In this document: piece after piece, positions 187 through 27,766 of the stretch
How positions within the stretch are numbered: position 1 is the first letter of the stretch
How the letters are laid out: each line of letters opens with the position of its first letter
Origin: Owenia fusiformis
Lineage: Eukaryota > Annelida > Polychaeta > Sabellida > Oweniidae
DNA: 64,000 nt
NCBI GenBank assembly: GCA_903813345.2
Contig: CAIIXF020000003.1
Location: 21,652,931-21,716,930, forward strand
Reading direction: 5' to 3'
The notes under the pieces: generated by a model
Seen by the model: the letters and a program-made list of their open reading frames with translations, nothing else
Told to the model about the DNA's origin: nothing
The model's database searches: none
Translations under genes and position numbers: made by a program

Positions 187-304
187 CCTTGTCAGTTGGA
201 TGGTTCAAGTATGGTTTAAACTGAGTTACAAGTTCATGATTTTTCACTTTGCCCCCACTTGAAAGCATAAAATCTTTTATTATATCCAATCGAAAAGTTT
301 CCAT
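187..304 (-). CDS. Sowah: Sosondowah (Sowah) first coding exon, 5' partial gene running off the left edge
   Basis: Seen: reading from 304 down to 187 gives 39 codons plus one base, beginning METFRLDIIKDF and continuing through SSGGKVKNHELVTQFKPYL. It ends at a consensus splice donor (G|GTATGT on the minus strand, intron starting at 186). The start lies in a good context (A at -3, G at +4). The frame stays open upstream to about 400, but that part overlaps the promoter motifs, so the ATG at 304 is preferred. Known: Sowah proteins begin with a short winged-helix-like domain with the pattern hydrophobic-L-x(n)-GG-x-V-x-N-x-x-L-(V/L)-x-x-FK-x-(F/Y)-L, and carry ankyrin repeats further along. All those positions are present here. 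The molecular role of Sowah is not established. Inferred: the remaining exons, including the ankyrin repeats, lie left of base 1. Its divergent position beside Irx independently supports the call, because Irx-Sowah linkage is conserved in bilaterians. Confidence 0.78.
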
Positions 305-400
305 TTTCAATGGCGGATAACCGGAAATAGTATTTTGTATGGTTGATGCGCATGCGCAGTTTTTCCCGCGAAATTCGAACTGGCACGCACTTTTCATCAA
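305..400 (-). promoter_or_regulatory. Sowah core promoter with YY1, ETS, NRF1 and E2F-like sites
   Basis: Within about 65 bases directly upstream of the Sowah ATG are ATGGCGG at 310-316 (YY1 type; CCGCCAT on the minus strand), CCGGAAAT at 321-328 (ETS type), the perfect palindrome TGCGCATGCGCA at 347-358 (NRF1) and TTTCCCGCGAAA at 362-373 (E2F type). This combination is typical of ubiquitously active TATA-less promoters. YY1 sites of this kind usually sit just downstream of the transcription start, so transcription probably starts near 317-340, giving a very short 5' UTR. The exact start site is inferred. Confidence 0.65.
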
Positions 401-577
401 TGATTATGAATCTAGTTTGAATTCAAGTCATATGGAACTTTCTTTTAATCGATGAACTCACGCCGGTTTTAAACTAAGTAATATATGCTTATAATATAAA
501 AGTACTATATTTTGCCATCTCTATGGCTGTTTCAAGTCCCGGGTTTCAAGTATGCACTACAGGACTCACAGTGGGCT

Positions 578-882
578 CAAGGAGGATTGGCTCCCAGGAT
601 CGAAACTCGATATTTTCCAACAATGAAAACGTCGAAATGTCGTTATTTTCTGAAATTAAAACCGACTATAAATTCAAAATAAACAGTTCAAAAGATTCGA
701 ACCAATATCTCGATCATTTCTTGTGAGTTTTGGAATTTTTCGTTTGGAAATAAGACCAAAATTCACGATTTAAATGTTGAAGTGAACAAAATGGCGGCTG
801 TTTGAATTCGAATTTTGTATTACGACATACCCATATATGGGACAGAATATCGGTGGTGCACTCTGGGAGCCAATCCTCCTTG
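578..882. mobile_element. MITE, 305 bp, perfect 20-bp TIRs and 9-bp target site duplication
   Basis: Seen: the element begins CAAGGAGGATTGGCTCCCAG (578-597) and ends with its exact reverse complement (863-882). The 9-mer cagtgggct occurs immediately outside both ends (569-577 and 883-891). A further CGATATT block inside each arm extends the inverted similarity imperfectly. There is no transposase frame; the interior is AT-rich. Known: 9-bp duplications are typical of Mutator-like elements and are also seen in a few other superfamilies, so this is probably a non-autonomous MULE-like element. The intact termini and exact duplication suggest a relatively recent insertion. It lies under 300 bp upstream of the Sowah start. 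Confidence 0.85.
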
Positions 883-891
883 CAGTGGGCT

Positions 892-2659
892 CAAGAATGA
901 GATAGGTTAAGCATATATAAAAGCCTATATCTATCCCTGGTTTATATTTTATAGCATACAATAGTTCTAACCAAAACAGAATCTAGACTAGATAAAACAT
1001 TCGATTGGAATTTTATACCTGAAGAGGTCCCCTTTGGGCATGCCATAGTTGTCAAGTCTTCTGTGACCAGCTCCTAGGGACCTCTCACTTCAGTATAAGC
1101 CATAAATAACCAAAGTAAGGTGAAACACAACAAAAAATGACAATTTCATTTTGAAAAGAATTCATCATTTAAACCCCGAGGACAGAAAAAGATTGCCATC
1201 ATTATTGGTGATATTATTTTCCAGCCATAAATGACATATGGATAACGATATGCGTTTGCGGGTGGCCTTATTCTCGACAATCGCGTTTACGACCCTACGT
1301 CACCTTCTGTGTAAGTCTCCCGCATCTAGCTCCTAGCAGTTATGAAATGAACGTTAATTCACTTTTACAACTTCAACAATTTAATAATTCACTTTCAGCT
1401 ATAAATTACTTATATTCTGTATTTTTGAATTTACATACATTTGACATTGTTTTGACATTTGTAGAAATTAGTGGTTAAAATACTTCTATACGATCCCATT
1501 CACGTCACTCTCACTGGACAAGCTGGTGACAAAATCATATCAGACTCTATTTCCCGAAATGGGATGGGGCCATATCAAAACATTCTGCATAAGAAACTAA
1601 TTGACAGCTGAACACAATAAACCAAATAACATTCTTGAAACCACCCCTTGCAAATATCGTGACAAAATATGGTTTAAGTGAAAGTGTCTGGAAATCTATA
1701 AGTTAGAATTAGCGAGGTTGATAATTGGCTATTGGTCATAGAAGGGCATTTAACTCAGAGGGGGAGGGCGACTTCTCCGACCCACACTCGATAATATACG
1801 TCTCAATGGGTTTTCTCAGTTGGGGGCAAAACAGGTGAAAGTGAACGTTTAATTATTGTTTCAGAACCATGGTTTATACATATGGATGGCAATAGGAGAA
1901 AATGGGACTACACACGCGTTTTTGGACACCAGTGACGCATAAGAGTGATGTCAACTGTTTTGAAGACCCGGCCTTGCCGAAGGACGAAGCCACAGTCTGA
2001 AGAATGAAAAGATAACGAGAAATACGCATCAAACAACAAGGCAACAGAAGTTTATTTCACCAGAACTCAATAGAGTCAGTATGATGCACGATGCAGGACG
2101 ACAAAAAACAACAACAAAATACAGCCGCACAACCTTACACAACACGTTAGCCTACATCTGACGAGAAAAATTTAACAATTGAACGCATCAAGTGCATTTG
2201 CCGAACATTCAGTGAAAACAATGAAAATATAGAACTATACTAATACTAGTACTTCAAAGTAATCGGTCAGTCTAACACATGGCCATTATTAAATTCATAT
2301 TTCACTTTCTTCAACAACAGAATTATCTTTCATAATCACCCGCAATTTAAAATATAGGCCTAAACATCGGGCTAAACATAACAGAATACAAAACATCCAT
2401 AACTCAACTTCATATTTGCATGCATTGTTAAGTTGTTGAAATACAGGTGCACATACAGAGTGACACCCTTCTGGTTCTCACTACGAACAACAAACTCAAA
2501 CAGAAACGCAATGTAAATCATGCACAACTGCAATCTAATGTCTGTGCCAGATTCATGTCAATGTCTGACATCTCAAAACTCATTGCTCTATCCATTATCT
2601 TCTAATGTGAAGTTTTTCTAAAGTTACCCATTTGCCTCAACAATGACATACTGTAGCCA
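892..2659. other. Intergenic, no gene seen
   Basis: No exon with splice-site support or recognisable protein was found on either strand. The only structure noted is the small foldback at 1019-1093. This is the Sowah-proximal part of the Sowah-Irx interval and may contain enhancers that cannot be recognised without alignment. Confidence 0.5.
1019..1093. repeat. Short foldback with AGAGGTCCC / GGGACCTCT arms
   Basis: AGAGGTCCC (1023-1031) is exactly inverted at 1077-1085. The similarity extends outward as CTGA on the left and TTCAG on the right after a 3-base insertion, so the arms are about 13 bp. The flanks are tata-like on both sides. It could be a very small non-autonomous element or a chance hairpin. 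Confidence 0.4.
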
Positions 2660-2770
2660 CCCCCCCCCCCTTTCCCCCACTGGATCCATCTTTGGAACCG
2701 TCGTAACTTACCATCCGGTCGCATGTCATTGTTCGGAACTAGAAACGGTTTCTCGGAATCGTAAGTTACG
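2660..2770. repeat. C11 tract followed by a 10-bp inverted repeat
   Basis: A run of 11 C at 2660-2670 precedes a GC-richer segment. CGTAACTTAC at 2702-2711 is exactly inverted at 2761-2770, leaving a 49-base loop that itself holds the small palindrome GAAAC-G-GTTTC. TTTGCCTCA occurs on both sides of the structure (about 2631 and 2798). The arrangement resembles a dispersed repeat terminus, but no target duplication was identified. Confidence 0.4.
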
Positions 2771-5639
2771 CTCGTACCAATACGAACATCTGTATTTTGC
2801 CTCAAAAAATCTTGCCCCTCCCTCCCCAAGGACATGCACCTAGCCCCACAGTCACAAAACATACTACACCCAACTCTTCCAAAAATATATTATTTCTTAC
2901 ATGATCTCCCTCCAACAAAGCATACAGTACCGCGTAAACACGTTGGGGAAATACAAAGATGCAAGGAACCGGGTACCGGAGCGTTTATGAATAAAAGTAA
3001 ATTCATTAATTCCTGGAGCTTTACGCGAAACTGTAAATGCCGTGAGATTCGCTCAGCTAAATGTCAGTAGTCAGTAGACTGAGCAAGTACCATATCCACA
3101 TCCAGACTCTGGTGACATTTAGATTTGTCCCGAGTCGCCGGTAAATTGTTCTTGTAGACCATGTCCAGCCTATGTGACATACTCGCATACATTTGTACAT
3201 AAGTCATTAGCCTCCCCGGGAAAAACTGTCATCGTGTGGTCAAGAGATTCCTTTGTGTATTATTAACGAAACGTATAATTGATACACAGGTAAATGATTC
3301 GCATATTATGGTATTTACAAATTAATTAATTAACTTATATAATATTAGCTGATTAAATCCTAATGGATCCACAAATTACGTTTTGTCGGAAGGGCTGCAC
3401 GTTAAACTCGAAAATCCATGTTTAACATGATGTCACACAGAAATAAATACTTGTCTTATGTCACCTCACTTATATGTGTAGATTTTAATTGAATTCCTTG
3501 TAAATGAGATGTCAGACTAGGCTTTAATAACCGAGTTTGTGAAAATACGTGTCTCCATTCACTGCTCCATTGTGATAAATGAGTCAAAATGGGTAATAAT
3601 TTAGTAAATGGTCTAGGATTTAATTAGGGGATATTGGTATGACTAGTTACCTTAACACGCAATCAAACTGTACTTTTTATATTATTCAGGTGTAAACATA
3701 ATAGGGACATCACTCAAGAATATAAGAAACGCGCGGAATTCTGTCTTCCAAAACTCCAAGAGAGAACCATGCCCATTTGATCCTTTTAGCCTAGTGACCA
3801 GCTGATTACAAGTCAATGTCCCTGAGCAGGGAGGGGGCGACCACACCCCTTTTGTTTACGTTTGAAGAAAAGGCGACTAGGAGGAAAGAATGTGCTCTGG
3901 CGAAAAAAGTAGAGAAGCTACTAGGCTTCAAGTGCAAGCTGTGATGTACTTGTTTTTGTCCGTTTGGAATTGCCAGTTCTATTTGTTTAGATGAATATAA
4001 TACACACTCTCAGCTCCATCCATAAACATATTGATATGAATCCTTACGCAAGACATCGGTTGACTATGAGAAGGATGATAAAGACTTAATTCGCGCAGTG
4101 CGTTAACTGTAACTGCTGTGACATCTTGCTGAGAAAATCCCGGGAAAATATATAATTTATTGTTTTCACATGACAAGCATTGTTTTCACAGACAATCTGA
4201 TTGCACCATGCAAAAATAGCCTACTATTTCAATTAAAATAACATACATTTATTTTTTGGCGCAACCATAGTCATTTATCCAGGGTATGAGAATGGCCTCT
4301 CGCCGTAGTTTATCCTGGAAGGGATTTTGAATTCCGGGAAAGATTGCTCATTTGGACTAAGGTAACAGCTAAATAACATACACGTGCTGTAAGTCAACAT
4401 ATTTGTAATTAAAATACGAAATCTCTCAAAATTGTTACAATTCCCATGCCAGACGAGATCGATTTAAATGGCGATACAAAAGTTTCTCAATCGTGGTGCG
4501 TAAGTTCTGTGGTTTTCACTCCAAATTGAAGAGCTATCGAGAAATATCAATAGCTTAATATTTTCGCCACTCCAGTTAGAAAAACACACTCAACAAAAGA
4601 CAACATGAAGTCGTACTTAATCTTAAAATCGAATAAAAGAATCTGTGCTTATCTAGTGGGCGATAATAGATTAATGGCCACCAAAGTAAATATGGTGTAT
4701 CCCCAACGGAAAAGAAACCAGACAAAATCGTTGAGTTTTCGTTGGGAATTTAGACATTAGAAAGATTTTCTGACAAATTGGACGGTCATCTCCTCTGAAT
4801 ATCCTTCCTATGTGAGAAGGCACTTTATTTTAAGAGGTGACCAAAAGTGCCATGGGGTGTTTTACTAATATTATTACTAACATCCGGGTATCGGAACAAA
4901 GGCAAGGTTCTCACGGATACTGTTGTATCAATTGCTGAATGTCAACAGACAAGCAGAGATTTTTGTATTTATAATTTATTTGATTGAAATTGTACATATT
5001 TGGACAATTTAAACAACATGGTTTGCAATTATCATCGGGGGTTTGGATAATGTTATACAACTCAAAATATGAAACTGTTTATCTTTTTCGACAACGTTCC
5101 ACGGTTTGAGTTGCGTGTTTTCCAAATATATAACTATATCTAAAACCTGAGCAATCGTTGATATTCATTTTCTTACTTAGTCGTTTCTTTCACTAGTTTC
5201 TTTGAAAACATTGAACTGACCTACATTTTCCAAATAAGTATAGGACTTTCATTTAGGAATTGTTTTAGAAAATTCAGCTGAGGTCAGGTGAATTTCCACC
5301 CATGCTTAGGTACTTTGATGATCTTTCTGAGCAAGGATACTCGTTTTGGCCATTTTAGACATTCTTTGCTTTTGTTTAAGGTATATACCGTACTTTTATT
5401 AAAATACCATTCTGGGCATGAACCCCGGAATCTCGTCAGACCTATTTATTGTTGTATTGGAATTTTTTCACCCCCTGGGCTTACCCACGGTTCTGATCAC
5501 ATACTTAACAGCTACATAAAAGTCAGACAATGAAGCATCAAAGTCTTAACAAATCATTAAACAATAAAAAACTTTTAGTTGACTATTGATATTTGAAAGA
5601 TACACAGTTAATCACTAGCCCAACAGTTCCGGTTTTCTA
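2771..5639. other. Intergenic, no gene seen
   Basis: Only short chance frames without splice context are present. A tandem homeodomain-type core (attaattaattaa) lies near 3320-3332. No repeat family was recognised. Confidence 0.45.
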
Positions 5640-5705
5640 TAATAACAACTTGAACAGGCTTCGCCTACAGGTAAGGCCCGGTAATAATGCATGTCTCATG
5701 TAAAC

Positions 5706-6030
5706 ATGGCCGCCCGGGGTTACATTCCACCAGATTCAGTTCCTCTATGGTATTCACTGTCTTGTCTCCAGCGCTGAAGATTCATTCCTCCCGCGCAAAA
5801 CCTTAATGGTGTTCGTGCTCTCAAACGTGCAAAACAATCTTAAGGAGAGAAGCTGACGAGGTATCCAAGTACATAGATGTTGATCACATGGAACTGAAGC
5901 CAGGGAATCAATCCCTTCGTTCAAAATCACCCGAAAAATCTGGAAAATCCCGGAACTATTTTGAAAATGTTTGGACGGATTGTCTCATAGTCATCAAGGG
6001 TATTCTCTTTACTTGTCGGGATGGAATGTA
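5706..6030 (+). pseudogene. Coding-like patch, possible decayed exon or retrocopy, unidentified
   Basis: Seen: an ATG in good context at 5706 opens MAARGYIPPDSVPLWYSLSC and stops at a TGA at 5775. The same frame continues after that stop as RFIPPAQNLNGVRALKRAKQ, then stops at TAA. A second frame, open from about 5810 to 6030, gives a charged, protein-like stretch containing EADEVSKYIDVDHMELKPG. The segment is visibly richer in G+C than its surroundings. Inferred: one stop and one frameshift could separate pieces of a former coding sequence. No family was recognised, and the opposite strand of the neighbouring segment also looks coding-like, so strand and identity are uncertain. Confidence 0.22.
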
Positions 6031-6236
6031 AACTCTCTGTTTACAATTTCTATGAAAATACCGATCGTAGTTGACAATTGATAAACAGCCGTGAGAACTG
6101 TTTCGTTTTCTTTAGTTCTTGTTGGACGATATGTCGCGTTCACGTACACCATGTTCCCCCTCAGCCACATGTTCCTGATGCTGTTCGACACACCGTTTGT
6201 GACATTGGGAATCAAATTACGGTTAAGACCTTCGAA
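6013..6236 (-). CDS. Candidate orphan exon, possibly of an extracellular protein
   Basis: Seen: reading down from 6236, a pyrimidine-containing stretch ending in TAG (possible acceptor) is followed by a 224-base open stretch ending at a possible donor, AA|GTAAAG. The translation has three N-glycosylation sequons (NVT, NAT, NET) within 50 residues and a pattern of alternating hydrophobic residues, with many RNY-type codons. It has no recognisable domain. There is no neighbouring exon to join it to, and the plus strand across 6078-6332 is also open. It may be a fragment of a transposed gene, a lineage-specific gene or chance. Confidence 0.2.
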
Positions 6237-6330
6237 CTACGAGCAGACACATCTACGAGGACATTGATACGATGGGTTTATTTTTCTTGTAACGATGAGT
6301 GGGTTTTTAGAAACAATACACTACATATTT

Positions 6331-7220
6331 AAAGGGCAGAGTCAGAAATATGTTTTTCTTACTTGTAGAACGCCATGGGCTTATATAGTCATTCAGTCGA
6401 GTTTTGGTCATTTCAGGCCAAAGAATTTTATAGTTTCGCTTTATAGGCCATATTATTAACATCAGAAACACTTGCATAAAGAATGATGCGATGGACATTG
6501 GACACACCTTATTCTAAAAAATTCTTGAATAAATAGACACTTAATGTGAAGTGGTTTGACATGGACACAATACAACTGCCATTCCCGACCATCCGAAGAA
6601 CCAATCCAGTCAATCGACTACTTATGTTAGCATAAAACTGAAAAGAGAAAAACGCCACAAAATGACAGGGTTGACAATGCAAATAAAAAACTAAACGTGA
6701 GGAAAAAGACATCTCTATATACCTGTTTAAATGACGTTGTTGATTATCTACGATCTTCAAAACAGGTGTATATTGTATTATTTTATACTATTCCCAAGAA
6801 CTGTACGTATGACATGCCGATTGATCTCTTTACGTTCATTTCGCCATTGTGCGGCAGTCAACCCGCCAATCAAACCAGCATTTATCAAACTTTAGTCGTG
6901 ATTCTGCAAAATAACTTCATAATTTTTAATTTCTCTTTCATGCTTATTATTTTTACCTAGTGAAAGTTTCACTTTCATTCAACTATTCCCAGGTGTGGAC
7001 ATGTTTCTTTTAATTATGGAAAATGATATTAATGTATATTCAATGACCTTGAGCATGATAGAAATCGGGATGTTACTTGTATGTACAAGACATTAAAGAT
7101 ACACGGGCAAACGTACGTGTATCATACATCCACAGAAGTTTTCCATTAACAACAAAAGAAGAAACAATAAAAAGTGACGGTACCACCAGACATCGACAAT
7201 TTTACCCAGCAAGAAAACTG
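6331..7220. other. Intergenic, no gene seen
   Basis: Short overlapping frames on both strands, none with protein-like composition or splice support. It leads directly into the LINE fragment. Confidence 0.45.
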
Positions 7221-7762
7221 ATAGATTTAGATTTAGATTTATGAACTTTATTACACATTCATACCCATAAAAGGTTAAGTGTACACAAAGTAAACACTAA
7301 TTTTACAATATATCAATACAACAGAAAACAGTATATATAACAACACACAAAATTAACACTTCATAATAAATAAATAAGTAAATAAATGAACAAATAAATA
7401 TGCATCATGGATAAGCACATGAATGGTGATTGTGATACGCGTCCATTGTTTATGTCATATATCACACCCTTCTATGTTATATTACATTTATGAATAAATT
7501 CTGCTACAATTTCAATTTCTTTATTTTCACAAGACATACAATATTGGAAAAAAAGTGAATCGTCCTCCATGTTGAAAAGGTGTTTAATTGGGTTGCCGTG
7601 TGATACAAGTTTATCGAGCATTTTCTTTCTATATATACTGTATTTTTTACATGAACGCATTATGTGTTTTTCGTTTTCTATTAAATTGCAAACCTCGCAA
7701 ATTCTTTCATCGATCTTTATATGACGTGTCGATGTCATGAAAAACCATAAACACATAATTTA
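7221..7762 (-). mobile_element. 3' end of a CR1/L2-type LINE, 5' truncated
   Basis: Seen: on the minus strand, an open frame from about 7756 to 7472 contains ERICEVCNLIENEKHIMRSC followed by a Y-x(3)-R pattern. The CxxC...H...C arrangement matches the zinc-binding C-terminal tail found after the reverse transcriptase in many non-LTR retrotransposons. The 3' end has AATAAA (minus strand, 7252-7247) followed at once by a short tandem tail of the hexamer AAATCT (7241-7222), the kind of terminus seen in CR1/L2-clade elements. The frame is blocked by a stop at 7762, so the element is truncated to its last ~540 bp. No reverse transcriptase core remains, so it is a dead copy. Clade assignment is inferred from the tail alone. 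Confidence 0.65.
7364..7400. repeat. AAAT-rich simple repeat
   Basis: Imperfect (AAAT)n tract inside the 3' untranslated part of the LINE fragment. Confidence 0.6.
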
Positions 7763-8511
7763 ATTTTGCAACCATTTTCTGAAAACGGTATTCCATTTAT
7801 AAACATATAAATCCAATCAAAACGTACGAAGACTAGAAAATCGCCCAAAGAAAGCATCATTGAATTATGTTGTACTAAGGACGGCCGTACACTAATCGAC
7901 TCTAGAGTTTGTTTTCAAAATGTCAGTGTATCAGCCAGGGAAGATTAATTACCCCGAGCTCACAACTCTAAACAAATCAACTAGAAGGACTGCTTCAAGA
8001 TCTTGATCGTCAGATAAACAAAGATATGACCCATATTGTCCATGCATTAGCGAGGGATGGATCTGTAAATCCACTACCCCCAGAAATAACCTATATTTCA
8101 AGTGTTTTATTGAAGTAGTAATATACAAAAAGCATTATCACAAAATATCCTGCATTATATTGTAGTATCATTGAGTCAAACTCTATTTGGTCCTTTTTGT
8201 TTCTTTAGTGTTATCACATGTGCTTAAGTTCTTTTGAATATGGAAAACAGTCCAATCGTATAGTCTATGCATGAAAAGCACATGACCAGCACTTGTCCAG
8301 AGTGCAAATGAAGATGACTCGATTACTCGTCATAAAACTGATGGGCTAAGGCAATGTGCCATCCTACCGATGACACAGCGAATGCTTGCAATGTCTCACT
8401 AATCTTTATATGTTTTTTCTCTTCTTGATGTGTTATCTCGTTCTTAGAATATCTTCGGCCGTCTTCCTCGCCACCTCTTACTCGCCAACTCCACTCTCCT
8501 CCACATCATGA
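7763..8511. other. Intergenic, no gene seen
   Basis: No coding or repeat signal recognised, apart from a pyrimidine-rich stretch at about 8455-8510 next to the MITE-like insertion. Confidence 0.4.
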
Positions 8512-8520
8512 TATGCACCT

Positions 8521-8740
8521 CAGGGGCTAGGTCAGCTTTCAGTCAGGGGCGGGGGGAGGTGCGATCGCCCAAAATTTTTTGGTTTTCCGTCGGGGAGGGG
8601 AGGGGTGCGATCGTGGCATCAGAAACCCCCCAAAAATATTTTTTAAGATTTGATTTGAGTTTTACAAAAATTGATGCAACTTCCTTCAAAATTGAGCTAG
8701 TTGATGGGGAGGGGGGACCCCATCGCCCCCTGGCTACGCC
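8521..8740. mobile_element. MITE-like insertion, 220 bp, 9-bp duplication
   Basis: Seen: the 9-mer tatgcacct flanks a 220-bp segment (8512-8520 and 8741-8749). The left end begins CAGGGGCTAGGTCAG and the right end reads CCCTGGCTACGCC. The ends are imperfectly inverted (TAG near a CAG in both), and both carry G/C-run blocks around gcgatcg and catcgcc. The end sequence resembles a widely dispersed invertebrate repeat terminus containing GGCGTAGCCAGGGGG. It has no coding capacity of its own; the open frame at 8508-8894 is produced by the insertion. The superfamily is unresolved: CAGGG ends suggest hAT, but the duplication is 9 bp rather than 8. Confidence 0.55.
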
Positions 8741-8749
8741 TATGCACCT

Positions 8750-10952
8750 ATATTTTCCTCTTTATGCGATGGAGTTAAAACAAAATCAAAACACGGGACA
8801 AATTCAATTGGAAATTGGATGCCTGGAAAAACTTTATTTCGTTTTTGTTATGTTAGGTTTCACAATTTCCAGGAAGAACCTCGCTTCCCGATGAATGATC
8901 CGCCCCCTAATGGAGTTGAGCTTGCGTTGCGGTCCACGGACGAGAGGATTAAGGGTGATGATGTATGTAGCTACCCTCAAAGACATGTGTAGTTATGTGA
9001 CCTACGTGTTAATGGATTAATATAATTACTAGATACCATACCGACATATCTCTCCAACCAGAACAGTAACCAAAAAGCCACGATTTAATCAAATAGTTTG
9101 TGAAGTCGGTGAGTGGGTGCAATGTCTGGAATTTGGCAAGATCACATAAAGTCTTCATGGTATTTTACCGAAACATTGATATATTTTTTCAAATTTTCAT
9201 TTGTTTCTGTTTTGAGAGATGTTTAAAAGGTGAATATAACAAAGTTGTTACTATGAGATATGATTTTGTTTATTGACTATTTTTTCTCAAACGCTTGTCT
9301 GAATGTATTGTTTTCTAGTTTTGCGCGTATCGTTCTTCAACTATTAGGGAGTTTAAGCTTGCTCTTATGTTTTTCACAACCTAAACGTGAACGGAAAATA
9401 TTTTTAAAGCGAAGCATTTATATGGACAATTGGTCATACGTACAGGTTAATTTCAATTTTGTATGCCTATTGTCTAACGCTTTTGCACCTCCCACAAAAT
9501 GTGAAAGGGGCACTCGTACATTTAAAATGGGGCAATAATTTCTTAGACGACCATAATTTCTGTTACGTTACATTTAGTGAAATGTTTCTAAGTTCTATGT
9601 GGAGTTGTTGGCGAAGTAAAACCTTTTCGGACAAAACTTCTTTTAAAGAGCGAGCTTTTTAGCAATCCATACAGTTCAGTTTTCTTTGACATTCTGCTGG
9701 AGAAAAAGCACTTTTATAGACAATACCGCAAGTCTATTGAATGTATCCATGTATCGGTTATTTAAGCTTCGATTTATCAGGATTTTTGTTACTTCCTGCA
9801 GTAAAACAAACAAGAGGCTGGGTATTAAGTTACAATATCGAACTGTGGTTTCACTTGCTGCGCCTACCAGATTAACACAAAACCGATACATTTGGCCTCA
9901 ATGGAGCTCTAATCCTTTGAATTATAAAAATGACTTTTCTTGAATAAAAAAAATGAATTTTCTAGCTCGGTAATTCATCAATTTCCCATAGTGTGCGACA
10001 CCTGGGATGATTCTATAGAATTTCATCTAATTAACATTAAAAAAGTAAATTCGTGACAGTAGTATAAGAAACGTACAAGCGTTTCTATGATTTTGACTAA
10101 ATTCTAGTGGTCTGTTGAGAAGTTAGTTTACATAGGTTACTGATGTCTAATCCCTTCAAAACATATGTCAAATTTTGCAAAGATACTTTTAAAAACTTGT
10201 TACTCGTCCTCGCTTTGATCTCGCCGTAAATTAATAAATAAAAAAGACATAGAATGGGCATTTGCTTAAAGATCTTTTGACTATCTTCTGTGAAAACCTA
10301 CAATAATATTATAACCAAAAGCGCTTTTTGAGATCTTTGTTATCAATGTTTCAAATATGTTATTTTTAATCCAATATTTGTATGGCATATCATGTTGATA
10401 CATTTCAATAACAAATTAAGTCAACACATTTTCTTCAAAGTGTTTGGTATTACTAATAAAGTTGATTTCAAACATCTGTATGTTTATGAATTGATGCAGT
10501 GTACCAAGTCACAAAGATTATTCCTGAGTCAATAAGGAATTCACTCATACAGCACGACAAACAAATAGTATCATTTCTCTAGCAAATGAAACGCATCAAT
10601 GGCGAATGCATTTTTCAAACAATGAAAACAAACTTTAAATATTTTTTCTATTTTTTCAAACATTTTTGTTGCTAATGTAATTAGCTACCTTAGGGTACGA
10701 GATAATGGAGTCTGTCTACCCATATGGCGACCATGACATATGTGGACGTGTTGCTACTGAAAAGTCACCATCTTTTGTGATGCGTATTTGATGCAATAAC
10801 TGATAGCTAGAAATGCAAAATGGAAGGTGTTGTATTCAGTTACTAATATTAAAACAACGATAACATATTTTTGTTTCTGTGTAGATTCATCAGTCTGGTA
10901 ATATATTAAATAATTCAAGTTCATTTACTTGAGAGAAAAATGATTTATTTTC
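8750..10952. other. Intergenic, no gene seen
   Basis: Several overlapping short frames occur at 9260-9943 on both strands, all of low complexity and without domain signal. No repeat was recognised. Confidence 0.4.
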
Positions 10953-10987
10953 GACGTTTCGCCGGTTATCCTACCAGCTTTATCAAG
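10953..10987 (-). ncRNA. Decayed hammerhead-ribozyme-like motif (retroelement derived)
   Basis: Seen on the minus strand: TTGATAA, one A, then GCTGGT, loop AGGATA, ACCGGC (a complete 6-bp stem with one G-T wobble), then GAAAC and GTC. Known: type I hammerheads in Penelope-like elements and retrozymes follow CTGATGA, stem II, GAAAC, with GTC at the cleavage side. Here the stem II hairpin and GAAAC/GTC are intact, while the CTGATGA box has two substitutions (C to T, G to A). The second alters a conserved core base, so self-cleavage is unlikely. No reverse transcriptase lies nearby; it is probably a solo remnant. Confidence 0.4.
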
Positions 10988-12136
10988 ATTACATTTTAAG
11001 GTACACAATAAAACATTTTTTATAATTTTTTTGTTATTTAATTTCGGTATCTGAGTTTGCTCGACCTGAAAACCTTGGTCTAACATTGACTGAGCTGTCA
11101 AAATGTATCCCTTAAGTTTACAACCGAATTATTGAATAGAGGAGTCGGATTTTTACGTAAGATCGGGCTGCTAGGCATAACTGAAAACAGAAGAAATATA
11201 TGCTGACGAGATAACACCATGTACATCTATGTTAATAATCCAATTACAGAATGTAGACTTGTTTTGTACACAATGTAATTAGAAAAAGATTGCCTCTGGA
11301 TGGTTTCCGTCGATATCATTGCCTCTTGCTCTCGATATGTTAAACATCTGTGTAGAGCAGGTATTAACGCAGACCGTATAGCCGAATGAGGATCCATTGA
11401 ACGTGAACCCTTTGATCATGAAACCCCGGTATTATTTTTGTGAGTAGGTCAACTCATATAGAGTAATGTCGTTCAGTGTACTTTTGAATTGGGCGGGAAA
11501 TGTGTTTTAAAACTCAATGTTTGAGTTAGACCCAGAGGAACATTTAGGAAAAAACAATGTAGAGACCGGAGTATAATCCCATCATAGACAAGCTATCACA
11601 GTTTCTGCTGCAATGTTGCCAGTTTCATTCTGCAAGACATTGGAATTATTGGAATTAGCTAATTATCTATCTACCATAATATCAAATTGTATCAAATCAT
11701 AGCAAATGATGTTAAAACCATGTGCTTGATCCCAGTGGCAGAGTGTTAAACATATTTGTGGAATGGGCTTTGGAATCAGTAAATATCTGTTAATGAACGG
11801 TATCTGAGATGGGTATAGTACGTTATGTCCGTTAACCTCAGATTCAGATATCTAGTGTCCCAATCTCAGAAGAATTTGACACATGTAGAGAACATATCCT
11901 CCAATCATAAGTCAAATATTTGACTAATCAAATTCTAGGCATGCTGCACTTTGATACAATAAACTGATAAAACTGAGTAAACGTCATATACGGCCAGTCG
12001 GTCAAGGTCAATTCATGCGTGACATTTATAGAATGACCTTGACCTATTTATGAAAGCATTTGTTATTTCAGGATCTGAAAGCACGAACGGCAGCATCAGA
12101 AAAAACAACAAAAACAAAAATATTAATATGAATAGA
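10988..12136. other. Intergenic, no gene seen
   Basis: No coding or repeat structure recognised beyond the edge of the hammerhead-like remnant. Confidence 0.4.
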
Positions 12137-12280
12137 CAGTGAAACCTGTGAACTGGAACACCTCTAGAAGTGGAACACCTTTGTTAGTGAAACACGAATC
12201 TCTATAAGCGGAACACCTCCAAAGTGGAACACATTTTACACGTACCAAATGTGTTCCACTTAGAGAAGTTTCCCTCTAGT
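12137..12280. mobile_element. MITE-like element with GGAACACCT subrepeats and a foldback
   Basis: Seen: it starts CAGTGAAACC (12137-12146). Five direct copies of a (T/C)G(G/A)AACAC core follow at 12154, 12171, 12188, 12209 and 12225 (spacing 17, 17, 21, 16). An inverted copy then forms a perfect 15-bp arm pair, AAGTGGAACACATTT (12222-12236) against 12247-12261. The right edge is degenerate near 12276. The CAGTGAAACC end and internal subrepeats suggest a Tc1/mariner-type (pogo-like) non-autonomous element. A similar end occurs in the element at 14378. Confidence 0.45.
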
Positions 12281-14149: not shown

Positions 14150-14176
14150 ACAGATTTGTTGATTTAACAAATCTGT
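14150..14176. repeat. Perfect hairpin, 11-bp arms, 5-base loop
   Basis: ACAGATTTGTT (14150-14160) is followed by GATTT and then AACAAATCTGT (14166-14176), an exact inverted copy. It is not followed by a T-run on either strand and no gene lies next to it. Confidence 0.6.
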
Positions 14177-14377: not shown

Positions 14378-14535
14378 CAGCAAAACCCGTCTAGTGAACA
14401 CCTCTCTCTACGTGGACCTTCCTCCGCACATACTTTACTGACTTCTGTATAAATTACCCTCTCTGTAGTGAACACCTACCAACACTGAACGTTTTTTTCT
14501 AGGCAAAAAAACTTCAATATACACAGGTTTTGCTG
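14378..14535. mobile_element. MITE-like element, 158 bp, 10-bp TIRs
   Basis: Seen: CAGCAAAACC (14378-14387) is exactly inverted at 14526-14535, and similarity continues inward (YGTSTA). Inside, GTGAACACCT occurs twice (about 14394 and 14468). TA precedes the left end; the right flank is AA, so a TA duplication is not intact. Its ends and internal motif resemble the element at 12137, and both are probably degraded members of one Tc1/mariner-type family. Confidence 0.45.
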
Positions 14536-17500: not shown

Positions 17501-18225
17501 AGTCTATACCTGTAAATCTGTATATCTCGTTTTACATAATTCATCTTCTGATTGAAATTATGATTCTTCGGATATGACCAACAGATACTGTAGTTTGTAT
17601 CTTCGGTTCGGATTATTGGGGTTAGTTTTCAAATGTTACCCTTTTTGCAAAACACCGATTGACATTATTATTATTGATGGTACTGATAGAAAAGATCCAT
17701 CAGCTGAACTCAATGGGAAAATGGTGATTACCATGGCAACATTATGGCAATAGGTAAACATAGAATACAATCAAGCTCGAGGGGCAACCCCCGGGGGCAA
17801 CCCCGCCCTATTCCCTCTTCACACCATGGATATTCATAGAGATGGAGGGCGGTCTGAACAGGTTTGGTGGACGGCCAAGAATGCGACGACTCAATAGTTA
17901 CTGTATTCCATCTGTATATTCTACTTGTATTCCCAATGGAAATAAGCTAACAAAACAAGGGGAGAAGAGGACATCAACACCAATAAGCACAGACTTTTGG
18001 TAGCTAGAGGACGTCAAATTCATTTAAACACAAACTACAAATTGAACCCAACAGAGGAAAATCGTACAAATCTATGTGCACAATAAGAAAACAAAGAGGG
18101 CTACATTAGAATAAGATAGTTCACTTACACCCTGTAAACAACGCAAGTTAAGCCAGAACAATTCTCCAAAAGTTAACTAGAAGTTGATATTGTGCAGAGA
18201 CACCATTTGTTGTCGAACATGAGTT
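14536..18225. other. Intergenic, no gene seen
   Basis: No supported gene. A direct repeat with AATAAGGGT occurs at about 16745 and 16796. GGGCAACCCC is duplicated near 17785. Confidence 0.4.
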
Positions 18226-18271
18226 CTACACAATGCCGTCGCTAGGGACTACACAATACCGTTGCTAGGGT
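18226..18271. repeat. Two-copy 23-bp tandem repeat
   Basis: CTACACAATGCCGTCGCTAGG plus two bases (18226-18248) is repeated at 18249-18271 with three differences. Confidence 0.7.
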
Positions 18272-21200
18272 TTATGAATGGATACAAGACGGGGGAAGTA
18301 ATCTTAACAAGTTTTCTGATTAACTACACCTGAAGATTTGGCAAGAAGCAAGATAGCCTATCAAGCCTAACAAATATAAGATGCCAGTATCATACTAGAC
18401 CAAAGCCCAGGAAACGCCGCTCTTAGATATAGCTTTGTTAAAGATGGGATTATGGAAAGGATACATTTGTCTCATGTCTCGGGGACCTACTATGGTCCAT
18501 AAATCACTCCCAATTAGTCAGCCCATACTTTTGTATCCTCATATAGTAAAACGCACCAGGGGTAACATTTGAGTAAAACAAATTAATACAAAATTCAACT
18601 TACCATTTCCCGAAATAAACCAACAATCAAATCCATGGCCCCAAGGAAGTTCATCCGACCACAAAAAGATATATTATAAATTTTATCTCGAAAACAGAAA
18701 TGTAGATTTCAAAGCTTCAACACATGAAGGCAGTAATTACTTTTGGATTTAAAAATACTTTGTTTCATTTGGATCTGGCATTGTTCTCTTCTGGTTCTAA
18801 AATTACTTTTCAAACAAAATTTCATAACCTTTGAATAGTTGGTACGTAATGCGTACATTCTGGCGTTAACCTTGCTTGCTTCTTACATCTTGGCCCCGAT
18901 GATGAAGATCACAATGAAAATCGAATATACCCGAGAGAACAATATATTATCAACGCAGCCCAACCCTTCTTTATGATTCACTTATTAAACAGAGCGCTTA
19001 CTTATCTCCGGGCAAGCCCAAATCTTGTAAGCAAACCGACCACCCCGTTCATACCGCTCATTAACACTTCATTACATAAACATCACGTATATCAAAATAT
19101 TTCTAGGATCATCGCATATGTGATGTAGAATAGCGATAACCTGCTATCAGGGTATCCTGATATAGAGGAGGTGTGTTCTGTTGCTAATTTGCAGAAAGAT
19201 AATAAGAAAGTAAGAACGATTTTGACTGATTAAAAGAGGAATGTGAGTCCCATGATTCTCTGTCCCATGATCCTTTGCCGTGTCTTTGTGGGTAGAGTGA
19301 CGTTATATGTCACCTAAAACAAAAACGACAGTACAGCCTCTTATACTAATACGATTTATAGTTTGACATATTCAGAAAGTACAAGAGGCAAAATTAGGAA
19401 AACGATAAGCCAATCCCAATAAACATACCAACTCATCAAACTACATATATTGCCAAGTTCTATAATCAAACACAAAGACAAAAACTCCATCAGTTCAAAT
19501 GCGACATTTTTCTCAAAGGAAGTTGGACCAAACTGCAATGTTCATGTGTCAGTCTACCACGGGATGTAGACATGTTGTTAACATGTATTTTGTAGTATTT
19601 TCCCATGCCATAACCAGTCTCGACTACACTTAATTCAATAAGAGCATAAACCTGTTATAATTAATGTTACGTCTTGTTTTGACCACCTTCTAATTAAATT
19701 AAACTAATTGCGATCAACAACACTGTTATAAGGTGTTATTTAAGTTATTTAAGTGTCTTGATCTGTCGTCGACTCCCTGGTAGAAGCACGGAGACTTGGA
19801 ACTCGGGCTCCTAGAGGGTTGATTAGGGCTATAGACAACGAGAGCAGACTTATAGCACAAGGTGCCAATTTAGTTGAACTAACGGAGCCTACACTTCAGG
19901 ATAAACCAACAGAGATTCCACACTGCGCCCTCAATCGTACTCCCTCTTCTAAACCACGTGTCTTTCATCGTCCAATTGAAATGACGATGCGATCAGAAAA
20001 GTTTGAAATATTCATGGGAATGATACATCCATTTGTATTGCTTCTTGGTGGCTATCAAGAATGATATCGGGGGCTGTCCGGACCCTGTCATGCTTGCTGG
20101 GAACGTCTGTACGAAGGTCTGTATCTCACTTGGGCGGTGTAACATACATACTGATTCTGGTGTTACAATGTCTTGTAACATCGTGAGTCACGCCTTTCCT
20201 GTTTAATATGTCGTGTACGGCATAATAGCCTTACCTAGGCAGTACACATGTTCCAATGATGTAAACATTAAGTTCAAAATGTCTTGCATGTAACTGAAGA
20301 AATAAACATTACTACTGTGGTAATTTCACTTTCTTATGATTGTTAGTGACATGTATTTATATTTATAGAACGAGAAAGCCGTTTTGTTTGTCTACCTCTA
20401 TTTTCCAATGTATTATTTGATATATAATTGCAATTAAAAACACATGACTGTTGGTTAATCGGGAATTTGAAGATTTAAAATACATTGTTTTCTTAAACTT
20501 TGCAAAGACCTAATAAAACAAAACTTGAACTAAGGTTGAAAGTTCCCACGCCAAATATACATGGGGTACCAAACTCTCTGAGACCACTAGTCTGCGACTC
20601 TACTACTACATCCTGTGATTGTGCTATACCCCCTGACCTAAGGAACCACCCCCTGTGACTACCTAATAGCTTGATTGAAGAAATATATTCTACAGAAAGA
20701 CAAGTTCAAGACAAGAAACGCAAAATCAGAATAATAAAAATGTTCATCAGAGTTTGAATTTATCATTATGATAAGTTCTATTAATGTACACTGTCGATTA
20801 CGCTCCATTTAAACTGTCTTAACTCCACCAGTTGACATTTTAATTTCCAGTTATATTTTTCACATAAAACCTTACCCCGGAAAATTCAAATTGGCGGATA
20901 AACACTCCAAAATCCGTAAATGTAACGGTATGTCCGAGACAGTCTACCGTAGCGGTCATCCAGACCATTAACGATTGAAAAAATACAGTTAATTTTGACA
21001 TTTCAGACAACATTATATCGCTTGATTATTTCTGATGGGGTCTTGATTGAATAATTGCACCAATAGAGCCACAATGGTAATCGAGTAGAATAATTTAATA
21101 ATTGGTAAAATGTAAATATTTTGATATTGTTGATCACGAAACAATGCGGGGACGTTGGAGCCTCGGGTCTTGAGATTTTAGACAGCTGGGTGACAACTGA

Positions 21201-23469
21201 AATGTTAATTTCATTTCGGATAGGTAAGGGTAACTTTTGAAACGGGGACATGGATTGTTTGCAGCCACAGACCGGCTATATAGCGTATAATATAATCTTT
21301 CCTTTTCAATCTCCCGGGTTCAATCTTAAATCGTTTTCGTTCACACCATTCTAAGCTATTAAAACGATTATAAAGCAACACACACAAACAATGAATGGTT
21401 TTCAATAACTTTAAAAAGTCCATGAGAAAAATAGATAATTATTTCAAAACTTAAACAAAATTATTCAAGCTAGTGCTATTCACTGAACTTATCCATGCTG
21501 TAATTCCAAAACGGTAATTCATTCAACTACATCAGATCTTGAATAAGAGTTTAACTGCAGTATAAAGCATCAGTAGATTCACAGCAAATAATTTGAGTTG
21601 CTTCTCTTGTCTTATTGTTCAAAAACGCAAACAAGGAAAATTATGAAAAAAAACCATAAGGGTTTTATGTTTGTGTATTTGTTTGTTTATTTGTTTGTTT
21701 ACTTGTTCTTTGAAGAGGTCATATAATTAAATAATCAACATCACAATAAGGTAGGATTATACACCAACATTTCCGTGTTTTCCACAAACGAACACGATCA
21801 TTCTGACATGCCCCGCAGTCCGATAGCCACTTATCAGGATTATCGGTTTGGATAATACATATCATGGCTTTATTTATCTCTCGATCCACCCATCCTAATT
21901 ACCCGAATCGTCCATCATCGTGTCCTGACTGGATCAACCCGAGATGTGTATTATGATCTGAGATGTGCATCTGGACATCACGTACAGGGGTCTAGTGTGT
22001 CGTAGCATTGTAAGTGGTGGATCTGATATCGGGATCTTACGTGTCACTACAGTCTGGACCCTAATGGATTTATGCAATGTAGTTGCTTTAAGTAGTATTT
22101 CATTGGTTCAATATGCGCCATCAATGTTGTTGAGAGAACAAGAGGCGACCTTGCAAAATAAAAACTAATCCAGGCCCATGTTACTAAAGCAATAGCACGA
22201 ATTGAATACAACATCCCCAAATGCAATTCTTTCAAGAAAGCAAGCTATAGTAGTTCAGGTAAATCGTTGAAAGCGAAAAATGATGACGTACGCTATTCAT
22301 TAAGGCTTTCCCAGAAATGTAAAGCTATGTATTGTGTCGTGTTTTTAAATGTCGCTGATTGTGCTGTCGTAGATCATTCCATTTGAATCAATGTCAGAGT
22401 ACAATGCATGTTTGATATTGTAGTGTATGAGGGCACATATTCAGCTGTGGGGTGTCAACGAGTTGGCTCTGGAAGATAAATGGGCATGGCACAAGACACT
22501 GAAGGCTTGCTTGACTCGAAAATGACCTCAACTGATAGGACATGTCTTTGTTTTAATTAATGAGCGTTTTAAAAGGAATGGACAGTAGGTTGATGAAATA
22601 ATGTTGTCCCTGTGTTTAGGTACACATTTACCACAATGCGGTGTTTTGGTTTAAGGATGGTATCTTGGGTGTGCTGGAAGATCATTTTGGGTCTATTGTT
22701 AAGTTTACGGACAAACGCACTAATTATAGCTGCTGTCCATTGGTCACACTCATGAGCGAAATTATAACATTTTAATTAGAGTTTGGTTTTGAGAGTTCAA
22801 ATAATTTGACTTTTTCAAATTATCATTTTTATTGGCATTTGAAGTATTTCAGGTTAATTTCTGATTCGTTTTATTTCACCTCTTAAAGGATATAGCTCTA
22901 ATAAAGATGTCAAGATGTGAAACACGCCACTATTTAGTAGTTTCTCTCCGACCATTAGCGTAGATCATGTCATTGTGATGGTCAAACCTTTGCTGTGCAT
23001 CTTTTTGTTTAAATGCACACCATCACCTGGTGACCTTGTTGATGATATCTACCGTTCATATTTAGTATTTTTAAAAACCGTTGATTGTGATCAAAATGTC
23101 GCAAAGGACCCATTTCGATCTCATTTCTAGTTTAAACCCAATCTAAGACGTCAGTGTCATCAAAATGATGATTATTATGCTCGATAAAATCTCTAGGTTT
23201 AAAGGATGCATTAGAATAGTTTTTTTCAATTTAGATTCATTTTACTATGTTTTGTAAGAATAAGGACTAATAGACATAACTTCAGCTTCATTAAATCTTT
23301 TGGGATTTCAAGTCTAGGGTCAAAGAACACTGATCATGGCATGCTAATGTTGTGTTTTACACGGGGAAACATACTTTGAATTTAAGCCAAACACATATTT
23401 TCTGACCTCATTGTATTAATAGAACCCTAACCAAATGATAAAGCGATGAACGATAACAAATCACAAATC
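18272..23469. other. Intergenic, no gene seen
   Basis: No supported exon on either strand. A TTTG-rich simple repeat lies at about 21669-21708. The stretch 21780-21990 is compositionally complex and non-repetitive, a reasonable place to look for a conserved element, but nothing definite can be read from it. Confidence 0.4.
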
Positions 23470-23603
23470 TCGTCTGCTTTCTTCCAATTTTATTCAAGTC
23501 AAGTATCTCGTCTGCAGGTTTCATTCAAAACCACCATTTTATTATCGTCTGCATCATTTTTAGTTTGTAATGGATTTGTCATGTTGTTTCTGAAATCGTC
23601 TGC
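23470..23603 (+). repeat. TCGTCTGC array, four copies
   Basis: The octamer TCGTCTGC occurs at 23470, 23508, 23545 and 23596 (spacing 38, 37 and 51). The intervals share degenerate ATTCAA and TTTTATT blocks, so this looks like an eroded tandem repeat of about 37-51 bp in which the octamer has been best kept. A related two-copy array lies in Irx intron 4 at 37531-37583. Confidence 0.6.
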
Positions 23604-26600
23604 GAATATTCAATGAAATGTACGAACGGCTCGTAACATTTAATTCTAGACATTTTTGGTGACATTTTATAACATGGACGTACCACATGAACAAAGGGAC
23701 GTTATGATTAGATTTGATTTGCGAACATATTTTCTATGGTAGTAACCCGTCATTAACAAGAGTGAGGTACAACAACGGGGTTAGGCTTGGGGACTGTCTG
23801 TCAAATTCCAACGCCATAACTAAAAATCACCAAGGGGCCCTCACAGGAATCCATTAACCTTCTGCCCCCATCGTAGCTATAGGACGTTAATCATAGATGT
23901 AATATTACGGCCATGAAGGTGTCAACAGCCGGGTTGTAGCAACATATGCCTAAAGCGAGTTAGAAATCACTAACAAGACCCATAGCGTGTTTACCTGGTA
24001 CTGTTTACTGTAACAACACCTCAAAATTGTTAGACTCGCAGAAATTTCTTAAGAATGTTTTCAATGAAAATGGCATGGCAAATAGTCGAAATTTCCTGTA
24101 CCATTAAGATTTGACTCAACGCTGCCCGTGACACGCTTTATTTTATCCAGGGGAGGGAAAGTTGTATCCCATTAAATAACGTTGTTTGAATGTTGTAATG
24201 TAATGATTTAATGCATTAACCACAAACACTGCACCTTGTACTTTCTAAAGATGAATTAATTCTTCACAATTAAATCAATTTGCTGTATTTCTTTGCATTT
24301 TCCAAATGTTGCCTATTGTGTTATCGGTAACACTTATAAACATGATACAATTATTTTCTTTGTAATAATTCAGTTCTGCTTGTACACACAAGAAAACACT
24401 AGCAATGTTCCAGTCTATCCTATGTATTATACAGATTTGTATGCTGTTTCTGGCGTGTATACGGAACTAATTCCAAGATTTGGATATCACTGATCTATGA
24501 ATGCGGTATAAAGTGCACGTGTAACATGGCAGATCATACCATGCCATTTCATTAATAAAATGTCTGTTCTTTGGTGTACAATACTATCTAATAGAATAGT
24601 CTATTACGTGTTTCATGTTTGTCAACAGTTGAGTGGTTGAACGGCGATAATCTTCGTCTTCCAGCGAAATTGTTTTCTGCTTTATCACAGGCTCTATTCC
24701 CTCCTTAGATTTGGGCAATTTTTCATTTTGCCTTTCAACAAAGCTGAACGGCTTTGCCTGCCCCTAAAGTCAATCACAGGTTCATTTATAACGCTTAATT
24801 ACCCAAAGATATTGTTCATACCATTAATGACAGCAGTGGCCATTAATGGTTACCTTAATAGGTATTCGAGTTGTTTTATTGTGGATTACCAGTCAAACAT
24901 TTCAATCATTTAATTTTCATTTCACTTTCCCCTTATTGTATTTTCGAAGTGTCGTTAATAAAATGGTAAATTAGTATATTAATCTGGCTGCATACTGCCA
25001 CTTGAGCAACGCTCCTTCCGGACTGCTACATTTCAAAGTAGCATCTATAGTAATAAAGTCTTCATACAAATCATTTTTATCACTGGAGGTGAGAAATTGT
25101 GGTTTTGGTATATCAGCGCTTTGTATTGTTGTTGTGTCATCTCTCCTATTATAAAAATGTCAACAAACGCATTTACCATAGTAACATCTAGTATTTCAGC
25201 TGAACTGTTACAAAGTGTGAGGTAATTATGACATCATGCATTTTGAGATATACCAGAGACAAGATGAAGTTTAGAAACACAGAAACTGTTGAACTTTGAT
25301 CTGAAATAGGATTAACAAAACACACCGAAATAAACAAGTTTGTTTTCTCATCAATCTTTACACCGGACAAAACATATAAGATCTTAATGTTATCATTGAA
25401 CAAATTCTAGGGTAAAATGTTCATATATAAGTATGATGTGACACCCCATTAATACATACTATTAATTTTCACTTGATTGACGTCGCTTTAATGCACACAT
25501 TTTGTCCACGATCTAATGTAGTTGAATGGATTACCACTGTGGTTATGCAGCATGGATCAGAACAATGAATGACACTAGTCATTCATTGAAAACATGAATA
25601 ATTTTGATTATCAAATTGGGTTGTTAAATTCGAAAGATTAACACTTTCCAAAACAATTAATTTTGAGATGTGTCGTGCATATTAGAAAATAAGCAAGATT
25701 TCTGAAATCATACAAAGGAAAAGGGGAAAAGAGTCAGTCAGAAATCATCAAGCTAACATACTTGATAGATATTTTAAAGCATATCATTTCAAATATGTGC
25801 ATTTGTGTTGCTCCCATGTCCTTTTGTTAATATATTCACAGATGTGCAGTGTGCATGTTGAGATGTATACATTGAACTAACAACAGGAACATTAAGGATG
25901 TGACTGTGTTTATTTTTCCTTGGATTTTCCCCAAAGATCTGACAAAGTATTGCAGAGTTTCCAAACAGCTGAATGCACCGGTAGATGTATTTCACTGTGG
26001 TATTTGATGTTATGCTGCAAAAGATACAGTTAGTTTGCACACTAATTTAACTTAATTACCTATATCATCAGAGTAAAACAACGCTCTGCGGGTTCGAGAC
26101 AAGAAGCAGCAACACTGCTTATTACTCCACATGACTTGGACGGAATCTACCGCCACACAAACTAGCCAAGATTTTATACTGTCAGGTATTGCAATTTAAA
26201 TATAAGTACAAATCAAATTGTCTCAAGAGTGAAATCTTGCAATCTCATTAAATAAAAAAGTTATACGTTGGTGACTATTTGTATTTGATGAGCAGCAAAT
26301 TAAAACAATGAAGGCTTACAGTTCGGCAATTGATGATAGCGATCCCTATTCACAGCGACGCTAACTAAACTACAATATCGGAACAGCGGCCAAATCAAAT
26401 CATAATCACTAGCTATTTAATATATGTCATGAATTTTGAAAATCTATGATAATAATATATGTCAAGTCCATAGCTTGCTTTGCAGTAGACAAGACACCAT
26501 GCTAGTTTAGTTAAAAAGCTAAACACAGCACACTTTGAAGTCATTCTTCTGCCAATATCGCGGCTAACATGCTGCTCAGGTAGACTCCGACCTTGCCGAA

Positions 26601-27173
26601 TACAAAATAACTAGACCATATTATGGAAAATGCAACAACGTTTAATCGAAATATCCAATTATTAGAGGCATATTATACCAAAAATAGTAAATTTATTACA
26701 AATTAAATTTAAAAGATTTAAAGTTTCTTTTTGAGATATGTTGATATAAGTAACTTGACCACGCTGTTATCCTTTGAGGGGATTGTGTTGTACAGGAAAA
26801 GCACGCCATGGACGTCTTGCTACCATATGTGTATGACTCTGATACCAAAAATATTGAAGATCTCTCTTAGTAAGATATCCGCAATATTGTTATGATATTA
26901 CAGCCGAAATTTTGAATATCCGAATTGCGCGTTCCCGATGTAACGTAACCAGTGATTATGTAGTTGAATTTAGAACGCTGCTCCCTCAGTTTCGGCACCA
27001 ATTGAATAACTGTAAAGCTGTGTCGCATAACAGCATGGAATAGACAGTAGTGGCTAGTATTATAGCTTCCTAATAATCACCTCTATTGTTCAACATGACT
27101 TCAACAGACACATCATTTATATTCTTTAACTTGACACGAAAACTTAAACTATGCCTAGGGGAGGTGTCAGTAT
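23604..27173. other. Irx-proximal intergenic, no gene seen
   Basis: No supported exon. A perfect hairpin lies at 25563-25588. This is the 3.6 kb directly upstream of the proposed Irx promoter and is likely to hold regulatory sequence, though none can be proven from sequence alone. Confidence 0.4.
25563..25588. repeat. Perfect 11-bp inverted repeat, 4-base loop
   Basis: CAATGAATGAC, ACTA, GTCATTCATTG. The arms match exactly. It could extrude as a cruciform or bind a dimeric factor; no transposon context was seen. Confidence 0.6.
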
Positions 27174-27183
27174 CTGTCAATCA
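27174..27183 (-). promoter_or_regulatory. PBX-MEIS/PREP composite site upstream of Irx
   Basis: CTGTCAATCA on the plus strand is TGATTGACAG on the minus strand, the exact consensus for a PBX (TGAT) plus MEIS/PREP (TGACAG) heterodimer. It lies 512 bases upstream of the Irx start codon and next to the TATA-like sequence. Control of Irx by other TALE factors is inferred. Confidence 0.45.
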
Positions 27184-27186
27184 CTT

Positions 27187-27228
27187 GATAAAAGGCGGAG
27201 CTTACGATGATAGCTCGCTGTTCACTCC
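27187..27228 (+). promoter_or_regulatory. Candidate Irx core promoter (TATA-like plus Inr)
   Basis: GATAAAAGG at 27187-27195 differs by one base from a TATA consensus. TCACTCC at 27222-27228 fits the Inr pattern YYANWYY, with the A at 27224. The spacing (about 36 bases) is slightly longer than usual. No cap-site evidence is available, and alternative starts closer to the ATG are possible. Confidence 0.25.
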
Positions 27229-27694
27229 AAGTTCCCAGTGTAAACTCGGTGTTAACACGTTAAACAAGCAAGATCATTGATCGTTTTCTAACCAATCAAA
27301 ATCCCGAGATTACTATTTGAAGAAAGCAAAGTTGGGGAATCAAGTGGATGGTTCAAGCATAGAAGAAGCACCAGCCAAGAGAGTCACGGTACCACATGCA
27401 TTGGAGTATGTACACGTACAACAAGCAGGGAACGTCTCGCTTTTAAATACGACTTTTCAAAAACAAGAGTCAAACCTGCAGAAGACATTGGTGACTTCAC
27501 TCGAGTTTTGTATTAACACAGAACCGGACAAGTGAACACATCTCACAGTGACTGGTTTACATATTGTCATACATGGGAACAACTTGGACTCAACTGACAT
27601 AAAGACTACAACTTAACAACATTAAGTTATATAACTTTACCTAGGATTAAAGCAGTGCAACTTTTGGAGATAACGGATACACGAGACATTCAGA
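27224..27694 (+). other. Putative Irx 5' UTR with upstream ORFs
   Basis: If transcription starts at 27224, the leader is about 470 bases and holds several short upstream ORFs: ATG at 27348 (4 codons), at 27396 (16 codons) and at 27573 (9 codons), each closed before the Irx ATG. These could dampen translation. The extent of the leader is inferred. Confidence 0.3.
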
Positions 27695-27766
27695 ATGTCG
27701 ACTTATCCGCAATTTGGTTATAGCTATCCTTCCGCAGCTTCAGCCCTAACTGCCGCTTCTTCTCAG
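27695..27766 (+). CDS. Irx: Irx coding exon 1
   Basis: Encodes residues 1-24, [20 protein letters not shown] and four more, ending at CAG|GTTAGT in phase 0. Reading past the donor soon meets a stop, which supports splicing here. Confidence 0.93.

Follow-up and report, generated by a model that had tools for sequence, protein, structure and literature searches.

An Irx–Sowah gene pair in the annelid Owenia fusiformis, with an RPGRIP1L homologue the next gene detected past Sowah

Does the annelid Owenia fusiformis carry a genuine Irx–Sowah pair, and, if it does, what keeps the two genes side by side? The question is raised by a stretch of 64,000 nucleotides (the window; positions 21652931-21716930 of contig CAIIXF020000003.1, here C3) of the 498 Mb, 525-contig assembly GCA_903813345.2, for which a preliminary description, made from the sequence alone, had proposed that a minus-strand exon near the left end is the beginning of Sowah and that a complete Irx stands in the opposite orientation. 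Besides the window we examined 160 kb leftward and 30 kb rightward, the latter solely as a list of frames of at least 60 amino acids, and modelled the genes on the basis of domain matches, splice sites and reading phases. The locus holds a genuine Irx–Sowah pair, of the kind already reported across bilaterians, and both proposals hold.

The putative Sowah exon opens with an ATG at 304-302, spans 118 nt and ends in the donor GTATGT. Nine exons are found in all, this one being the first; all are on the minus strand, and together they extend leftward past the window edge, covering ~91.5 kb, with introns 2.4-34.4 kb long (Table 1). The eight junctions joined are all GT-AG, and their phases fit throughout, with no stop codon arising. 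Exons 2, 3, 4, 5 and 9 are supported by splice sites and phase, and exons 6-8 by sequence match. The joined protein has 375 amino acids and is 3'-incomplete, with a gap of ~6 residues between exons 5 and 6: three patterns for the corresponding ~18-nt exon did not find it, and none of five candidates for the terminal exon, sought in C3:21541400-21561690, was convincing. The exon 9 end coordinate used in the model overshoots a GT by one base. In Pfam the joined protein matches Ank (E 4.6e-17) and Ank_2 (E 7.3e-16), the matches below threshold being chance-like (e.g. Zwilch, 0.0073). Ankyrin exons to the left of base 1, whose absence would by the preliminary description's own test have refuted it, are thus found 64-78 kb away, with consistent strand and splice phases. 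Searched twice, by motif and by consensus, the nearest 60 kb on the left gave no ankyrin match, the weak exon 5, which lies inside that stretch, being missed.

To characterise the ankyrin exons we used a SOWAH-like ankyrin query composed before the DNA of exons 6-8 was obtained. Against 6276 frames it matched exon 7 with E 1.5e-8, exon 6 with E 3.6e-7 and exon 8 with E 0.025, exon 5 scoring only E 2.9, and on joined exons 5-8 it reached 107 bits at 52% identity. Genome-wide the query gave 122 other matches, the strongest at 45.9 bits. The comparison is tilted towards the Sowah locus, whose exons had been joined, unlike those of the other loci, though several of the latter lie in long open frames. 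None of these 122 matches, drawn from the 150 of 797 candidates scored, fell at the Sowah locus itself, where the ankyrin domain is split over exons. A PDB search with exons 5-8 returned 420 different sequences of ankyrin type with E <=0.001; these are ankyrins generally, and the search is uninformative on SOWAH.

Could the exon at 187-304 belong to some gene other than Sowah? On its own it matches nothing in Pfam or PDB, and exons 1-3 together give no Pfam match and only a chance-level PDB match (E 1.2), and a resemblance to the N-terminus of SOWAH is putative; moreover, visual inspection of frame lists supplied exons 2, 3, 4 and 9, and a motif pattern supplied exon 5. Against this, phase-consistent GT-AG junctions tie the exon to eight same-strand exons, the ankyrin exons among them, and it is because the ankyrin exons splice to it that we identify it as Sowah. 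Across the whole genome, a query of exons 1-3 matched this gene's exons 1 and 2 and nothing else, with no second locus matching the exon at 187-304. We therefore consider another identity very improbable. One Sowah locus is found in the genome, and it is multi-exonic, not a retrogene.

The Irx gene is complete: six exons at 27695-43868 encode 479 amino acids from start to stop codon, all five introns run GT..AG, and the phases fit. The homeodomain profile PF05920 matches with E 2.7e-19 on the frame and E 1.3e-18 on the joined protein. Among 17 genome matches to this homeodomain the second-best has E 3.5e-11 and 50% identity, and the other 16 are at most 53% identical, mostly over short stretches. 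It is on this distance, together with characteristic motifs, that we take the gene to be an Irx, and it is the sole Irx-like homeobox found in the genome. Seven TALE homeobox matches stand in tandem within 14 kb at C5:39469751-39483441, a group that resembles the TALE expansions of spiralians.

Irx and Sowah lie head to head, and the 27.4 kb that had been put between them agrees with an ATG-to-ATG gap of 27,390 bp, the Irx start codon itself moving by two positions, from 27697 to 27695. The spacer had also been called gene-free. None of its 16 frames of at least 90 amino acids, all scanned, reaches the Pfam cut-off (the best sub-threshold matches being a viral guanylyltransferase model at E 0.0044 and SET at E 0.018), and a scan of the whole window gave no tRNA and no Rfam family at the gathering threshold. 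The claim thus stands for frames of at least 90 amino acids, a length that most Irx and Sowah exons do not attain, so that a gene of small exons could escape such a scan. As judged by these frames, Irx and Sowah are adjacent with no gene between them. What does not stand is the description of the locus as compact: Sowah alone occupies ~91.5 kb, and the distance from its exon 9 to the Irx stop codon is ~135 kb. Right of Irx, no Pfam match was obtained for nine of the ten frames of at least 90 amino acids in the window (all but 63465-63827), and this gene-poor stretch is possibly further Irx landscape.

Some repetitive features were also seen. An insertion with the appearance of a miniature inverted-repeat transposable element occupies 569-891, ~270 bp upstream of the Sowah start codon, with 37-nt inverted ends (578-614/846-882, 78% complementary) and a 9-bp direct repeat (569-577/883-891). 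A mobile-element remnant suspected at 7472-7759 was rejected, all of its Pfam matches being sub-threshold. A tandem repeat in a Sowah intron (leftward piece L002, 7708-8421, plus strand) holds one frame open for 237 codons and resembles translated repeat DNA, not a gene.

Table 1. Features of the Irx–Sowah locus (window positions unless prefixed C3)
Feature	Position	Strand	Basis or remark
Sowah exon 1 (start codon)	187..304	-	splice sites and phases
Sowah exon 2	C3:21650678-21650739	-	splice sites and phase; picked by eye
Sowah exon 3	C3:21645814-21646023	-	splice sites and phase; picked by eye
Sowah exon 4	C3:21636774-21636923	-	splice sites and phase; picked by eye
Sowah exon 5	C3:21622966-21623067	-	motif pattern, splice sites, phase
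Sowah exon 6	C3:21588434-21588523	-	ankyrin query match
Sowah exon 7	C3:21578874-21578946	-	ankyrin query match
Sowah exon 8	C3:21574694-21574774	-	ankyrin query match
Sowah exon 9	C3:21561703-21561942	-	splice sites and phase; picked by eye; 3' end provisional
Divergent spacer between start codons	305..27694		27,390 bp; includes 5' untranslated regions and promoters
Irx exon 1 (start codon)	27695..27766	+	gene model
Irx exon 2	28734..29006	+	gene model
Irx exon 3	31275..31399	+	gene model
Irx exon 4, TALE homeodomain	32801..33117	+	PF05920, E 2.7e-19
Irx exon 5	42600..43142	+	gene model
Irx exon 6 (stop codon)	43759..43868	+	gene model
Gene-poor stretch right of Irx	43869..64000		no Pfam match in nine of ten frames of at least 90 amino acids

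How does this pair compare with those of other animals? Maeso et al. 2012, as cited by later papers, is reportedly the founding paper on the Irx–Sowah genomic regulatory block of bilaterians. Passages of three later papers describe the Irx–Sowah linkage as conserved across Bilateria (PMC8767184, PMC5585340, PMC5803294), and the kinship proposed in the preliminary description is borne out. As in the bilaterian block, Irx adjoins a multi-exon, ankyrin-repeat Sowah with long introns. The divergent orientation is one we infer for Drosophila as well, from deletions described in part of PMC12311624, which also places Iroquois-complex enhancers inside the sowah introns; Drosophila has several Irx genes, whereas one is found here. 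The locus further differs from the described block in the gene that comes next.

Beyond Sowah, the next gene found is a single RPGRIP1/RPGRIP1L homologue with its 5' end facing Irx. C2-C2_1, the first C2 domain of RPGR-interacting protein 1, has three matches genome-wide, all on the minus strand at C3:21504247-21507890 (two over the cut-off and one under), and RPGR1_C is over the cut-off in minus-strand frames at C3:21495126 and 21496639. An interval of ~20 kb, inspected by eye only, separates the last Sowah exon found from three minus-strand coiled-coil frames to its left (C3:21541158-21541379, 21540409-21540606 and 21533464-21533682), which have no Pfam match over the cut-off and are putative N-terminal exons of RPGRIP1L. 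Two long, similar plus-strand frames of 1084 and 520 codons stand between RPGRIP1L exons (C3:21510858-21514109 and 21521119-21522678); both have an apparent membrane-spanning stretch, and the first has repeated tyrosine-rich motifs.

In human, RPGRIP1L and the IRX3/5/6 genes share 16q12.2, and we searched for homologues of further genes from human 16q11-13 (RB family, VPS35, NUP93, CHD9 and AKTIP). All matches to the RB family (3/3, at C3:17.47 Mb, ~4 Mb from Irx–Sowah–RPGRIP1L), VPS35 (12/12), NUP93 (7/7) and RPGRIP1L (3/3) fall on C3. Because these tested homologues fall on a contig that makes up only 7% of the genome, C3 seems to share ancestry with human 16q. The BRK domain, used for CHD9 and also present in other remodellers, has two of its four matches on C3, ~25 kb from RB, and the other two on C1; in this search two prokaryote controls gave matches, below the cut-off. 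A BRK-domain gene and the genome's only RB-family matches thus stand on the same strand at C3:17442946-17471321, a pair that recalls CHD9–RBL2 of human 16q12. For AKTIP, C3 carries two of the 54 ubiquitin-conjugating fold matches (23.4 and 27.3 Mb), neither near RPGRIP1L, so that its placement beside RPGRIP1L is unsupported; AKTIP and RBL2, which come next past RPGRIP1L in human, do not do so here.

What, then, keeps Irx and Sowah together? The most likely explanation, in our analysis, is that Irx would be the regulated developmental gene, the target of long-range enhancers situated in the 27 kb spacer, within the Sowah introns (~90 kb) and perhaps also to the right of Irx, where genes are few. 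Sowah would be a bystander, and breaks between the two genes would be selected against because its exons stand among enhancers acting on the Irx promoter. We consider it probable that the block works in this way, counting in its favour the gene models, the ankyrin match, the single loci, the long Sowah introns and the lack of long coding frames in the spacer, together with the published linkage across Bilateria and the enhancers placed in Drosophila sowah introns. Two points weigh against it: what this animal shows is anatomy, in a single genome, from which we infer the enhancers, their Irx target and the selection; and C3 keeps old linkages generally (RPGRIP1L, VPS35, NUP93, RB), so that adjacency need not mean regulation. 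This last point supports simple inertia, by which Irx and Sowah would be neighbours with no regulatory tie, on a chromosome little changed since the bilaterian ancestor, as the concentration of 16q homologues on C3 might suggest. However, the RB, VPS35, NUP93 and RPGRIP1L homologues are spread over 3.8-31.9 Mb of C3 in shuffled order, and yet Irx and Sowah are adjacent here, as they are in many bilaterians according to a portion of PMC5585340. Drosophila genetics also demonstrates regulation via the sowah introns (PMC12311624), and we regard inertia as unlikely.

Does the RPGRIP1L neighbour then reflect an ancestral arrangement? In human, FTO lies between RPGRIP1L and IRX3. In both animals RPGRIP1L flanks the Irx landscape, and its 5' end is the one that faces Irx. 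Judging from parts of PMC4671217, PMC2906751 and PMC9002814, the two loci are also alike in having a long-intron bystander between RPGRIP1L and Irx, which is FTO in human 16q12.2 and Sowah here; FTO and RPGRIP1L are named as bystanders of the IRX3/5 regulatory block in a section of PMC9002814. Neither the FTO_NTD nor the FTO_CTD profile has a match in the genome, and while such a blank does not prove absence, it fits the distribution of FTO homologues, reported in a passage of PMC2906751, in vertebrates and marine algae.

We suggest, tentatively, that the bilaterian ancestor may have had the order RPGRIP1L–Sowah–Irx, in which the gene in the middle harboured Irx enhancers within its introns, that FTO may later have come into Sowah's place in vertebrates, and that the obesity-linked enhancers in FTO introns may occupy regulatory territory older than FTO, formerly Sowah's; this reading draws on one genome. 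The same fact speaks for the alternative that RPGRIP1L came to stand beside Sowah by a coincidence of local shuffling, as do AKTIP (no match nearby) and RB (4 Mb away), which in human follow RPGRIP1L on its other side but do not adjoin it here, and the genes that part of PMC12311624 names next to sowah in Drosophila, namely CG4096, Pmm2 and CG34242. Conversely, given the shared chromosome, chance alone would place RPGRIP1L no more than 139 kb from Irx in ~0.8% of cases, or ~3% counting other human neighbours (rough, post hoc figures), and the shared orientation also argues against coincidence, which we hold to be a considerable possibility, short of an even chance. Within the library searched we found no paper joining RPGRIP1L with Sowah, or RPGRIP1L, Irx and FTO with invertebrates (Maeso et al. 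2012 not covered), and the portion consulted of a Hong Kong oyster homeobox paper (PMC7566022) has nothing on Irx neighbours.

With the Irx–Sowah pair of O. fusiformis, a known pattern gains a further genome; what is new is the RPGRIP1L neighbour, which lies outside the window. Should that neighbour prove common to other phyla, one edge of the human IRX–FTO–RPGRIP1L domain would predate vertebrates, and the exchange of one long-intron bystander for another would become testable. The neighbourhood, which includes the gene that also borders the human IRX–FTO obesity region, may, in other words, be older than vertebrates.

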